From Streptomyces hyaluromycini (GTDB lineage Bacteria > Actinomycetota > Actinomycetes > Streptomycetales > Streptomycetaceae), in contig NZ_BCFL01000018.1 in the NCBI RefSeq assembly GCF_002217755.1, forward strand, positions 930,001 to 994,000: a DNA stretch of 64,000 nt, written 5' to 3'. A program made the translations under genes and the position numbers. Positions 27,734-47,374 of this stretch are shown piece after piece (the first letter of the stretch is position 1; every line of letters starts with the position of its first letter). The notes under the pieces are model-generated. The model worked only from the letters and a program-made list of their open reading frames with translations. It was not told where the DNA came from and made no database searches.

Positions 27734-30521
27734 GAGCAGGGCCGGGCGGGCGCAGGCCGCCGCGGCATCCGGGCACGGCCACGTCATCCAGATCACCGGC
27801 ACCGGCAACCACGTCTGCGCGTCGGGCGTCGGGGACCCGTCGCCGGTGCTGCAGCTCCCGGCGGAGCCGGTGCATCTGGCCGGCCGGGAGAAGGAGGCCG
27901 AGGCCGTACTCGCGCTGCTCGCCCCCGCGTCCCGCGGCCGGCCCGACGCCGCCGTCTCGTTGCTCTCCGGGCTCCCCGGCATCGGCAAGACCGCCCTGGC
28001 CCTCCATGTCGCCCACCGGGCCGTGGCCCGGGGCTGGTTTCCCGGCGGCGCGGTCTTCCTGCACCTGCGGGGCTACGATCCGGCCGGGCCGGTCGGCGCC
28101 GACGAGGCGGTCGGCGCGCTGGCGCGGGCGCTGTGCGTGGACGACGCGAGGACACCGGACGAGCAGACGGGGCTCTGCCAGGCCGCGCTGAACCGGCTCG
28201 CGGACGAGGGCAGGGCGGTCCTGCTGATCGCCGACGACGCGGCCGACGCCGCACAGATCGAACGCCTCGTCCCGGCCCGCTCCGCACACCGGCTGCTGGT
28301 GACCTCCCGTCACCTGCTCACCAGTCCCGCCTTCCAGCCCCGGCTGATCGGCCTGGACGAGCTGACGCCGCAGGGCGCCGCCGACCTGGTCGCCGAGGCG
28401 CTGCGGCACGCCCGGCCCGACGATCCGCGTCCGGCGCGGGAGGCCGGCGCGCTCGCCGAACTCGCCGGACTCTGCGGGCACCATCCGCTCGCCCTGCAGA
28501 TCGCCGCGTGCCTGCTCACCACCGACGCGGGCCGGTCCGTCGCCGCGCTCGCCGCCGACCTGGCCGACGCCCGGACCCGCCTCGACGTGCTGTGCTTCGA
28601 GGACGGCGGGCACACGACGGCGGTCCAGGCGGCGTTCCACCTGTCGTACCAGCGGTTGTCGCCGCCCCACCGCCAGCTGTTCCGGCAACTCGCCCTCAGT
28701 CCGGGCCCGGACATCGGCACGGACGCCGCGGCGGCACTCGCGGGACGGTCCCGGGGCCGGACCCGGGACTCGCTGGCCGCGCTCGCCCGGGCCGGGCTGC
28801 TGGCGGAGCAACCGCAGAGCTCGGGACGCTGGCGGATGCACGACCTGCTCCGTGTCTACGCGGCCGCGCTGGTCGAGAGGGACAGCCCGAAGTGGCGGAA
28901 CGCGGCCTTCACGCGGCTGCTGACGCACTGTGGGCAGCTCGCGCGGGCGGCGGACGCGCATCGGCACGCCCACGACGACGAACCGTTGCCGGGAGAGTTC
29001 CCGGACCGGGCGCACGCCATGCGCTGGCTGGAGGCGGAACGGGCGAACCTGGTGGCGCTCATCGCCCGGGCCGCGGCCACCGGACATGCGCGCGCGGTGC
29101 TGGAACTGGAGGAGCACATACGTCTGTTCCTGCTGGAGCGGAGCCGGCACGCCGCCGACGCCGTGACCGCCGCGCAGCTCGCCGTCGCCTGCGCCCGCGC
29201 GATCGGCCACACCTGCTGCGAGGCCACTGCCCTGGGGCACCTCAGCCAGGCCCTCGGCGACTCGGGACGGCTCCCCGAGGCGGTGGCGGCCGCCACCGGG
29301 AGCCTGGACATCGCCCGGGCCCGCGGCGACCGGGAGCGGCAGATCACTGCACTGCTCAACCTCGGCGGCGCGCTCCGCCAGGCCGAGCGGTTCGAGGAGG
29401 CCACCGAGGCCCATACCGAGAGTCTGGCCCTCTGCGAGGAACTCGGCGACCGGGGCCGGATCGGCACGGCGCTCGTCGGTCTTGCCGACACGCTGTGCGA
29501 CCGCGACGAGTACGAGGAGGCCGCCGGCCTGTTCACCGAGGCCGTACGGCACTTCGCCAAGACCGGCGACTGGCATGCCGAGGGCCTCAACCTCATTCGT
29601 CTCGGGGACACGTTGTTCGCGATGAAGAGGACCGAGGACGCCGTCGACGCGCACCGCCGCGCCCTCGCCGTCTACCAGGAGCGCGGCGACGAACACCACC
29701 AGGCCATCGCCATGCAGCACCTGTGGGCGGTGAGCGAGATGAGCCCGGAGGAGGCGGTGGACAACTACGAGAAGGTCGTGGCCATCTGCCACAAGGTGTG
29801 CGACCGCCCGCTGGAGGCCCTGGCTCTGAAGGCCCTGGCCGGCAGGCTCCAGCGGCTCGGCCGGTACGACGAGGCCGTCACGGCCCACCGCAGGGCGGCG
29901 GCCATCCACGAGGAGCGCGACGAGGAGAGCCAGCTGATCCGCGTGCTGCACGACCTGGGCACCGCCCTGTGCGCGGCCGGCCGTCTCGCCGAGGCCGTCG
30001 AGGTGCACGAACGGGAGATCGCGCTGTTCCGGACCCGCGGTGACCGGCACGAGGAGGCCGAGGCGCTGGAACGCCTCGCCGCGGCGCTGCGGCGCGGGCG
30101 CCGGCGATCGCAGGCGACGGAAGCCTCCGCGGCGGCGATCGGCCTCTACCGCGAACTGGAGGACACGTGGTGCGAGCGGAGGACACTGGGCGACGTGGGC
30201 CTGCCGGTCCGGGACACGCCACGGGCCGACCGGGTCATGGCCGATTACCACTGGGTCCTGGCCGGCCTGCCGGAGGACGACGCGCCCGGCCGGCAGAGCC
30301 GGATCCTGTTGGCCCTCATCTTCGCGCAGCGGCGGGCGTGGCGCGTCATCGGCATGTTCTGGTCGGTGGCGAGTCTGGCCAGGATCGTATGGCGGAACGA
30401 CCGGGCCGCGGAGCAGTTCGTCGAGGACTCCCACCGGCTGACGAAGGCCTGGCTCCGCCTCGTCCGCCCCGACGCCGCCCTCGCCGCCCTGCGGAACCGG
30501 TACCGCCGGCCGACCGCCTGA
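27720..30521 (+). CDS. NB-ARC / TPR protein with N-terminal amyloid-like motif (bacterial NLR)
   Basis: A 933-residue STAND ATPase. Residues 21-32 (HVIQITGTGNHV) match the motifs of the preceding small membrane protein. The NB-ARC P-loop GLPGIGKT is at 84-91, Walker B AVLLIADDA near 168, and GLCGHHPLAL marks the later helical part. TPR repeats run from about 480 to 830 (EEATEAHTESLALCEELGD). Such proteins bind a ligand with the TPRs, oligomerise through NB-ARC and expose an N-terminal motif. ATG 27720 lies inside the upstream gene and the longer upstream frame is a shadow. Interaction with the upstream protein is inferred. Confidence 0.85.
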   Translation: MVTGRSRAGRAQAAAASGHGHVIQITGTGNHVCASGVGDPSPVLQLPAEPVHLAGREKEAEAVLALLAPASRGRPDAAVSLLSGLPGIGKTALALHVAHRAVARGWFPGGAVFLHLRGYDPAGPVGADEAVGALARALCVDDARTPDEQTGLCQAALNRLADEGRAVLLIADDAADAAQIERLVPARSAHRLLVTSRHLLTSPAFQPRLIGLDELTPQGAADLVAEALRHARPDDPRPAREAGALAELAGLCGHHPLALQIAACLLTTDAGRSVAALAADLADARTRLDVLCFEDGGHTTAVQAAFHLSYQRLSPPHRQLFRQLALSPGPDIGTDAAAALAGRSRGRTRDSLAALARAGLLAEQPQSSGRWRMHDLLRVYAAALVERDSPKWRNAAFTRLLTHCGQLARAADAHRHAHDDEPLPGEFPDRAHAMRWLEAERANLVALIARAAATGHARAVLELEEHIRLFLLERSRHAADAVTAAQLAVACARAIGHTCCEATALGHLSQALGDSGRLPEAVAAATGSLDIARARGDRERQITALLNLGGALRQAERFEEATEAHTESLALCEELGDRGRIGTALVGLADTLCDRDEYEEAAGLFTEAVRHFAKTGDWHAEGLNLIRLGDTLFAMKRTEDAVDAHRRALAVYQERGDEHHQAIAMQHLWAVSEMSPEEAVDNYEKVVAICHKVCDRPLEALALKALAGRLQRLGRYDEAVTAHRRAAAIHEERDEESQLIRVLHDLGTALCAAGRLAEAVEVHEREIALFRTRGDRHEEAEALERLAAALRRGRRRSQATEASAAAIGLYRELEDTWCERRTLGDVGLPVRDTPRADRVMADYHWVLAGLPEDDAPGRQSRILLALIFAQRRAWRVIGMFWSVASLARIVWRNDRAAEQFVEDSHRLTKAWLRLVRPDAALAALRNRYRRPTA

Positions 30522-43845: not shown

Positions 43846-44703
<858 letters not shown>

Positions 44704-45282: not shown

Positions 45283-46512
45283 TCACACCGGAAGGTCGGC
45301 GCGGAGCCGGTCGTACAGTGCCGCCGTCTCGCGCTGTGGCGGTATGCCGAGTTCGGCCCGCAGGGCCTTGGCGCAGGAGCGGAACTGGAGGATGGCCAGG
45401 TGGGGTTGGCCGATCCGGCTCAGGCAGCGCATCAGGCGGCGGTGGGCGCTCTCCCGGCACGGGTCCAGCTCGACCAGCCGGCGGCAGAGCTCGGCGCAGG
45501 GGACGTAACGTCCGGTGGTGAAGTGCAGTTCGCTGAGCCGGGCGAGGGCGTCGAGGTGGGCCAGGCGCAGCCGCTCCCGGTAGAGGGCGCTCCACTCCTC
45601 GTACGGGGATTCGGCGAGGAACTCGCCCCGGTAGAGGGCGAGCGCCTGCTCGTAGTCCGTCACCGCGACGGTCTTGTCGCCGCGGTCCTCCGCGTCCCGG
45701 GCGGTGCACAGCCGCAGCTCGAACTCGTCGGAGTCCAGCCACAGGCCGAGGCGCGGGCAGAGCCGGTAGGTGCCGCAGCTGAAGACGACCACGGGATCGC
45801 CGGTGGCGGTGCGCAGGGTCTGGCGCAGCTGGTGCAGTGCGACACCGAGGCTGTTGCGGGCGGCCTCGGGGGCGGAGTCCGGCCAGAAGGCACCCATGAG
45901 GGCCTCCCGGTGCGGCCAGGGGTCGCGGTGAGTGGCCAGGAAGGCGAGCAGTGAGCGGGTCCGGTGGCCGTTCCAGCCCTCGGCGGGGACGCCGTCGACG
46001 CTGACGTTGAGCGAGCCGAGCAGGGCGATCGCCAGCTGCGGCGCAGGGTGCGCGGCAGGCCCGGCCGGGTCGGGGGACCGTTGCGGTTCCGGGGACCGTT
46101 GCGGTTCCGGGGACCGTTGCGGTTCCGGGGCGCGCCGGGTGTGGCGCAGCCGCCCCCACAGCCGGGGGCCGGGGTCGGCGCGGGCCGCGTCGTCCGATGT
46201 GCGCGGTGGGGGCCGGTCCGCGTCCGGCGACCCGGCCTGCCGGAACCAGTCGGCGGCGGCCTCATGGTCCCCGGCCAGCAGGGCCAGGCGTCCCTGGCGC
46301 AGCTGGGCGGCCCGCAGGTGGGTCGCCAGCCCTGCGGAGGCGGCCAGCATCGCCGCGGTACGGGCATGGGCGGCGGCGGTCGCCAGGTCGCCGGTGTCGG
46401 CGGCGGCGTCGCTCGCCTCCAGCAGCTCACGGCAGAGACGGTCGTTCGGGACTCCGGGCAGTGGTGGTTGCAGCGGCGGCTGCGGCGCGGATGAGTTGCT
46501 GTGACCAGGCAT
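45283..46512 (-). CDS. BTAD-domain (SARP/AfsR-like) regulator
   Basis: A 409-residue protein. Residues 20-90 are a TPR-like helical segment. Three PEPQRS repeats follow (18-bp tandem repeat). A winged-helix OmpR-like DNA-binding part (IALLGSLNVSVDGVPAEGW, then RTRSLLAFLATH) precedes the BTAD domain (EEWSALYRERLRLAHLDALARL, ESAHRRLMRCL). This is the SARP layout with an N-terminal extension. Genes downstream on the same strand are candidate targets. Confidence 0.88.
   Translation of the reverse strand: MPGHSNSSAPQPPLQPPLPGVPNDRLCRELLEASDAAADTGDLATAAAHARTAAMLAASAGLATHLRAAQLRQGRLALLAGDHEAAADWFRQAGSPDADRPPPRTSDDAARADPGPRLWGRLRHTRRAPEPQRSPEPQRSPEPQRSPDPAGPAAHPAPQLAIALLGSLNVSVDGVPAEGWNGHRTRSLLAFLATHRDPWPHREALMGAFWPDSAPEAARNSLGVALHQLRQTLRTATGDPVVVFSCGTYRLCPRLGLWLDSDEFELRLCTARDAEDRGDKTVAVTDYEQALALYRGEFLAESPYEEWSALYRERLRLAHLDALARLSELHFTTGRYVPCAELCRRLVELDPCRESAHRRLMRCLSRIGQPHLAILQFRSCAKALRAELGIPPQRETAALYDRLRADLPV
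46075..46128. repeat. Three 18-bp tandem repeats within the BTAD gene
   Basis: Three copies of GGACCGTTGCGGTTCCGG encode the PEPQRS repeats of the linker between the helical segment and the winged helix. Confidence 0.85.
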
Positions 46513-46651
46513 GACGTCTCCCCCTGCGGTTCTGCCTGGCGTCCACTCAAGGGCGGTGGTTTGGGCGTGTCAATCCGCATTTCGGTGTAGCGACCGGCGG
46601 CGCCCGCAGGCCGTCGGGACCGGAATCCGCCCCGCGGCCGGACGGCCTTGC

Positions 46652-46830
46652 CTAGGGCCTGTCTGACAATTCCCGTCGTCGCCCGGAGGGCGGCCTCGCG
46701 GCGTCAGGTGCGTGCTCTCGGCGTGCCGGGCGTAGGCCCTCGTACTGGACGTACTTGGGTCTGCGCCCGGTGCGGCGAGAGTGCGTGCATGGCGTCGCGA
46801 GGCAGACGGGAATTGTCAGACAGGCCCTAG
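46652..46830. mobile_element. MITE-like foldback element of 179 bp
   Basis: A perfect 26-bp terminal inverted repeat (46652-46677 and 46805-46830) begins CTAGGGCCTGTCTGACAATT. The inner sequence is also imperfectly palindromic (GCCTCGCG..CTCTCG pairs with CGAGAG..CGCGAGGC), so the whole element can fold back. It carries no coding capacity. The outer CTAG may be a target duplication or part of the ends. It fills half of the 352-base gap and ends 35 bases before the NUDIX start. Confidence 0.8.
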
Positions 46831-46864
46831 CATGCCGAGCGAGCCCATCGACGAAGGGAAACCC

Positions 46865-47374
46865 GTGGCGGACCAGCACACCGGCGGCAGGCCACCGGCC
46901 CTGCGGCCGGCGGTGGAATCGATGACTCTCCTGGCGGCCGCCGTCATCGTCCACGACAAGGAGAACAACCGGATCGTCCTCCTCCAGCGGGGCCCGGGCG
47001 CCAAGTACGGGAACGGGCTGTGGGACCTTCCGGTCGGCAAGAGCGACCCCGGCGAGCCCGTCACCGAAACGGCCGTGCGTGAACTACGGGAGGAGACCGG
47101 GCTGGTCGTCGACCCGAAGTCGCTGCGCGTCGCCCACCTCATCCACGGCGCCTGGGGCGTCGAGGCGCCGGGCGGCTTCCTCACCGTCGTCTTCGCCACC
47201 CACGAGTGGACCGGCGAGCCGGTCAACGCCGAACCGGCCAAGCACGCGCAGGTCCGCTGGACCGGCACCGGCGCCATCCCGGCGGCCATCGTGCCGACGA
47301 CGGGCATCGCCCTCGGCCACTATCTGAGCGACGGCACCCAACTGTCGATCGCCGGCTTCGGCGCCGCCGGGTAG
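46865..47374 (+). CDS. NUDIX hydrolase
   Basis: A 169-residue protein. GTG 46865 is preferred because AAGGGA lies six bases upstream; the ATG at 46832 directly abuts the foldback element and lacks a ribosome site. The full NUDIX signature is present: G-x5-E-x7-REL-x-EE-x-GL in GKSDPGEP..REETGL. It hydrolyses a nucleoside diphosphate derivative or oxidised nucleotide. Because the mobile element ends 35 bases upstream, the promoter may lie in it or have been disrupted. Confidence 0.9.
   Translation: MADQHTGGRPPALRPAVESMTLLAAAVIVHDKENNRIVLLQRGPGAKYGNGLWDLPVGKSDPGEPVTETAVRELREETGLVVDPKSLRVAHLIHGAWGVEAPGGFLTVVFATHEWTGEPVNAEPAKHAQVRWTGTGAIPAAIVPTTGIALGHYLSDGTQLSIAGFGAAG

Follow-up and report, generated by a model that had tools for sequence, protein, structure and literature searches.

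According to the available text of a review (PMC10969869), bacterial MITEs are small elements with inverted ends that duplicate their target, occur in many copies and are predicted to give transcripts with a stable stem-loop; they are typically AT-rich and lie in AT-rich regions. One described family, QMITE2 of Coxiella burnetii, is found mainly in 3′ untranslated and intergenic regions, as stated in the accessible part of its description (PMC5896051). For the insertion sequence IS5 of E. coli, duplication of Py-T-A-Pu has been reported, with CTAG as the commonest form, and CTAG is described as under-represented in bacterial genomes, both in the accessible part of the same paper (PMC5493358). 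The MITE analyzed here lies in front of a NUDIX hydrolase gene in a 64,000-nt stretch of Streptomyces hyaluromycini DNA (the window). Judged by the same partial sources, it has the small size, inverted ends, target duplication and copy number of bacterial MITEs in general, and it resembles QMITE2 in length (150–190 bp for the latter), in its location and in its very stable stem. Bacterial MITEs are typically AT-rich, however, whereas this one has a G+C content of 69% (124/179), targets CTAG and is often situated at stop codons; QMITE2 has variable direct repeats of 7–11 nt and is of the GTAG-type REP kind, whereas the CTAG of the family described here is fixed, and copies of it lie directly on a stop codon. 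The available text of the MITE review was found to make no mention of Streptomyces or of stop codons, and no described MITE family in Streptomyces was found in the one library of open-access literature that was searched.

The original prediction, made from the window sequence alone, described a foldback element of 179 bp with perfect 26-bp ends that ended 35 bases before the NUDIX start. A perfect 26-nt inverted repeat is indeed present (46652–46677 and 46805–46830), but it counts in the palindromic CTAG target copies; without them the repeat is 22 nt and the MITE proper is 171 bp. The element was correctly placed in front of the gene, with a gap of 34 rather than 35 nt between 46830 and the GTG at 46865; an in-frame ATG at 46832 is an alternative start. 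The "+" strand of the MITE was defined as the orientation giving the most stable RNA hairpin, which is also the sense strand of the NUDIX gene. Folding of the 179-nt stretch as RNA gave −160.6 kcal/mol compared with a shuffle mean of −83.1 (SD 4.68), i.e., 16.6 SD below the shuffles, and none of 200 shuffles folded as well. The predicted structure has 80 pairs, 10 of them G·U; the description "almost fully palindromic" is therefore apt for RNA pairing with G·U allowed but not for the DNA, which has 67% identity to its own reverse complement. Within the MITE there is no transposase frame, and 171 bp would not leave room for one.

Table 1. Features at and around the MITE in the window (positions in the window).
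Feature	Position	Strand	Basis or remark
Left target-site copy, CTAG	46652–46655	none	CTAG on both sides in 34/38 own-genome copies, on one side in 4
MITE, 171 bp, perfect 22-bp ends 46656–46677 and 46805–46826	46656–46826	+	
Small side hairpin in left half of MITE	46680–46692	+	Minimum-energy structure
100-nt hairpin core, common to elements with different ends	46699–46798	+	Alignment, covariation, covariance model
Right target-site copy, CTAG	46827–46830	none	Relatives have the NsdA-family stop codon here
Likely ribosome-binding site, GAAGGGA	46853–46859	+	Most of the relatives aligned have a similar GAAGGGA
NUDIX hydrolase gene, likely GTG start	46865–47374	+	PF00293, E 8e-19
Divergent BTAD-domain regulator gene, present left neighbor	45283–46512	−	PF03704, E 4e-28

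Further copies were among the things the original prediction had suggested looking for, and they are abundant. Alignment against the S. hyaluromycini genome (11.5 Mb, 51 contigs) returned 81 rows with both strands counted; alignment and an end-pattern search together delimited 38 copies with both ends (37 fetched plus the window copy). Not counted are L087, one end of which is poor, L094, of which just the core is present, and copies at the ends of contigs C25, C31 and C37. CTAG flanks both sides of 34 of the 38, and in the other four (L072, L086, L089, and L092) one letter of CTAG is changed on one side. Measured between the CTAGs, 32 of the 38 are 171–172 bp, and the rest are 169, 165, 151, 109, 109, and 59 bp. 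Thirteen of the 20 copies scored, including that in the window, are identical across 179 bp, so at least 13 are identical in the genome. The three shortest copies are internally deleted (L096 and L101, 109 bp; L100, 59 bp); they lack most of the core and are also flanked by CTAG. This could mean that the core is dispensable for movement; deletion after insertion is equally possible. In wider searches, element matches were present in 20 of 41 genomes (own included) and in 26 plasmid records, 24 from Streptomyces and two from Embleya; no match to the element was found in phage records. Its short length, inverted ends, dispersed copies and target-site duplication, together with an empty site in relatives (see below), identify the element as a MITE, and the prediction of an inserted mobile foldback element is borne out. 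Three contig ends of the assembly (C25 end, C31 start, and C37 start) fall inside MITE copies, which is not surprising for a strong hairpin that is repeated in the genome.

A search for an insertion sequence with the same ends had also been suggested; insertion sequences with similar ends were found in relatives and not in the strain's own draft genome. There, a search with end patterns at up to two mismatches revealed no insertion sequence with MITE ends: the ends belonged to MITE copies or contig-end positions, except for two singletons. L097, L098 and five partial ends (L235–L239) in this genome had no partner at insertion sequence size, and one 500-codon stretch of L235 had no Pfam match. 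An own helper may have more divergent ends or may have been lost in assembly. In the genus, MITE-type ends around a different inner sequence were detected in 26 of 392 genomes by pattern search. Thirty loci with related ends were examined, and these comprised three pairs 0.9–1.3 kb apart (L181, L193, and L196), nine MITE-sized pairs and 18 loci with no pair. At L196 an IS5 transposase is split over two overlapping frames, each of which scores above the NF033580 cut-off (PF13340, E 8e-31; PF01609, E 6e-24), and the CTAG-flanked ends of L196 are GGCCTGTCTGATAATTGG and GGCCTGTCTGACAAAGGA. L193 carries a DDE fragment. The single frame tested for transposase at L181 gave no match. L181 (188–1518) is a 1.3-kb element with window-type ends at CTAG and a methyltransferase-like frame (PF13649, E 1e-16) that adjoins IS5-transposase-like remnants; it is perhaps a passenger-carrying derivative. 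Among plasmids, 16 IS5 loci were fetched of the at least 60 matches listed, and paired ends were found in five and none in 11, under a pairing rule that itself demands YTAR-like flanks. Window-type ends occur at L401, L404, and L408, and ends of the GTCGTCAAA type at L411 and L413. Taken together, the IS5-family elements L196, L193, L181, L401, and L404 have outer ends like those of the MITE (GGCCTGTCTGA) and CTAG flanks; L408 has similar outer ends but CTAA on both sides. The insertion sequences differ from the MITE in being approximately 0.9–1.3 kb long, with the two-frame transposase in L196, whereas the MITE has no transposase frame and contains the hairpin core.

These comparisons point to a 171-bp non-autonomous transposon, a reading to which we assign a probability of roughly 85%: an IS5-family transposase supplied in trans would recognize the 22-bp ends, insert the element at CTAG and duplicate CTAG. 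Judging from the shared ends and flanks, the MITE probably moves by such an enzyme. Counting against this reading are the failure to find a helper in the own draft genome, the low number of insertion-sequence-sized pairs (three of 30 loci), the 11 of 16 plasmid IS5 loci that gave no paired ends and, as described below, the nonsignificant stop-codon excess in other genomes, the position of the window copy off any intact stop codon and the prevalence of TAA at the site in relatives. The duplication is seen as CTAG; the site is a palindrome, so a 2-bp duplication of TA and a 4-bp duplication are indistinguishable from sequence, and the length of 4 bp is the one we infer. Duplication of CTAG would leave a TAG stop codon intact.

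CTAG is scarce in this genome, with 79 occurrences in 464 kb compared with 1187 expected from base composition, an approximately 15-fold depletion. One fixed coding-frame rule, drawn up once these copies had already been inspected less strictly, was applied to all sites. By this rule, CTAG supplies the first in-frame TAG of the frame entering the element in 23 of 38 MITE copies, compared with 15 of the 73 CTAGs that hold no element (Fisher p 4.5e-5); the unoccupied sites were taken as the comparison set, random sites with CTAG pasted on being unusable as a null. The window copy is outside the 23 and does not lie at an intact stop codon. In other genomes the same rule gave a weaker, nonsignificant difference (30/56 versus 24/65, p 0.07), 43 unbounded copies and 12 with short flanks having been set aside from 111 core copies. 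A coding call was made on both sides of 13 of the 37 other own copies, and eight of these 13 lie between convergent genes. Copies are often at gene ends because CTAG is scarce and able to contain a TAG stop codon; the excess over unoccupied sites means either that the enzyme prefers gene ends beyond its requirement for CTAG or that insertions elsewhere have been lost. A bias of hairpin orientation relative to host genes was also considered, and none was consistent: among own copies of known orientation (n = 32) 12 have a stop on the right alone and five on the left alone, and in other genomes it is on the right in 12 and on the left in 16. Each side of L079, L091, and L100 has a TAG stop in frame; in these three copies two convergent genes apparently shared one CTAG for their stops and each kept its own after insertion.

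The original prediction had the element landing on the promoter and leader of the NUDIX gene. Matches to that gene were found in 254 of 295 genomes of the genus, many of them weak, and the comparison of orthologous sites was made with the 29 best NUDIX loci other than our own. Exact 17-mers of the MITE ends were present at 0 of these 29. An NsdA-family regulator gene (NF053720) lies directly upstream of NUDIX in 26 of the 29, several of the matches being partial and those at L215 and L218 very short. In all 15 loci that could be aligned to the right edge of the MITE, the NsdA-family stop codon is at that exact spot, which does not support a landing on the promoter. The stop is TAA in 14 and TAG in one (L212) and is followed by C and ATG; it thus precedes the in-frame ATG by one base and the GTG by 34 nt. 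In the window, the right CTAG is followed by CATGCC. At L206, L208, L213, and L220 the stop at the MITE edge is the sole stop of the NsdA frame, and at L212, the only locus with TAG, the frame also has an internal stop. An original CTAG at the NUDIX locus is therefore presumptive, since among the relatives it is seen in L212 only (1/15). No orthologue of this NsdA-family gene was found in S. hyaluromycini (best identity 32% versus about 75–80% among relatives with long matches). The best other match to the BTAD regulator in the 295 genomes covers 159 of 852 bases at 76%.

The relatives suggest that the MITE most likely entered the stop codon of an upstream NsdA-family gene, which would then have been lost or replaced by some route. 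On this account the element went in at the border of two genes, the upstream one of which has since disappeared, and no promoter was knocked out. Replacement of the NUDIX promoter by the MITE is improbable: of the 352 bp that separate the divergent BTAD and NUDIX genes, the MITE does take up about half, but the spot is a gene end in relatives, where transcription probably arrives through the NsdA-family gene, and a sigma-70 scan, a weak tool for Streptomyces, found no promoter-like site in 46450–46900. The hairpin is very stable, forms on the sense strand of NUDIX and lies 34 nt from the start, as might also be expected of a locus-specific regulatory RNA such as an attenuator or riboswitch in the NUDIX leader. 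The original prediction itself noted that an element absent elsewhere and conserved here in all relatives would suggest a regulatory RNA, and the opposite was found: it is missing from all 29 examined orthologous loci, and 37 other bounded copies lie beside other genes of the same genome. In Rfam 15 no family reached its gathering score for the window element (the only two matches, both E 0.21, scored 23.6 and 21 bits compared with cut-offs of 92 and 83), and a dedicated leader RNA is highly improbable. NUDIX mRNA would include the hairpin only if its synthesis began to the left of the MITE, and the hairpin should not mask translation directly because its end is 22 nt before the ribosome-binding site.

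Two traces of the missing gene were sought and rejected. A putative NsdA remnant to the left of the MITE (46562–46651) scored above all 80 other MITE flanks, yet not above chance, because 62 of 1500 stretches taken at random and 69 of 1500 matched for GC scored as high. For a rearrangement between MITE copies that moved the NsdA-family gene elsewhere, no clear DNA match was found near the copies examined (approximately 500 bp per side); tblastx matches in this search were noise and were left out. The BTAD regulator gene contains a PEPQRS-type repeat, and the neighboring gene (43846–44703, −) has a PEPEPE stretch.

The 100-nt core is not confined to elements with the ends seen in the window. 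Genome contigs searched with a 23-nt pattern from the left arm yielded at least 110 stretches, with Streptomyces accounting for 76 of the 80 matches listed. Among the matches listed, 68 bounded elements have 21 distinct first-nine-base ends, several of which are single-base variants of each other; clearly different ends over the same core include GGCCTGTCTGAC, GTCCTGTCGTCAAA, GGGGTGTTTCGAAA, and TGCCGCGGCAGGCA. When CTAG was not required, inverted ends were found in 88 of 111 core elements among the matches listed, with YTAR at both ends in 47 of the 88 and at one or both in 61 (chance, 0.8% per 16-nt stretch). An alignment of the window core and 39 others chosen from 67 distinct cores is 100 nt long and gap-free, and 97.7% of its cells pair; left columns 9–31 were fixed by the search pattern, which makes invariance there uninformative. 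Two-sided changes occur in 14 of 43 pairs (shuffled mean 7.3, 0/500 as high; slid controls 4–9), counted on a structure predicted from the same alignment. Of 197 genomes from the class, 14 had a match to a covariance model of the core: 12 belong to the genus (own included) and two, both with weak matches, to another family. If one conserved hairpin rides under many ends, it shows how passengers can switch transposases.

The pairing of the core favors one strand. Imperfect pairs in the 40 sequences are G·T in 389 cases and A·C in three, counts that are inflated by shared ancestry, and all 67 cores fold better as the plus strand (mean −83.2 versus −49.7 kcal/mol). A palindrome without strand-specific selection should show G·T and A·C alike. 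On the sequence evidence available, the G·T excess and the covariation suggest selection for a folded single strand, most likely RNA, with mutational bias a possible alternative source of the excess. We tentatively propose, as a doubtful rather than a favored reading, that selection on one strand maintains the core as a Streptomyces module of structured RNA (or single-stranded DNA), which is carried inside MITEs that have taken on the ends of several IS5-family lineages and sits preferentially on TAG stops, possibly forming the 3′ ends of mRNAs of the host. It is quite possible, though short of an even chance, that the core is instead a neutral palindrome whose one-strand pairing combines inherited G·T mismatches with strand-biased C-to-T mutation. 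The sequences are related and their cells are not independent, six G·T pairs are nearly fixed in the alignment, as one ancestor would give, and there is no clear orientation bias relative to host genes; neutrality is harder to reconcile with G·T occurring at least once in 26 of 43 pairs versus A·C in three, and with two-sided changes at about twice the shuffled mean. The strand that matters could also be single-stranded DNA, for example during replication or transposition. The element is mobile, and G·T is also tolerated in DNA hairpins, but IS5-family DDE transposition is not known to need hairpin DNA, and the core-deleted L096, L100, and L101 are also CTAG-flanked, although these were perhaps deleted after insertion; we regard a role for single-stranded DNA as rather unlikely. 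If RNA is indeed what the strand bias reflects, Streptomyces harbors a mobile structured RNA absent from Rfam, in many cases placed precisely at the ends of genes, in a genome with few CTAG sites. The core common across the genus, with one hairpin, many ends and one strand, is the part that deserves a second look. The core model also gave a weak match elsewhere in the window (29461–29580, −; 19.4 bits, E 0.04), possibly by chance, and in some related elements (L159, L167, L170, L172, and L174) a second small G+C-rich hairpin (TGGGGG...GAG type, approximately 30–40 nt) is nested in one of the two arms of the core.
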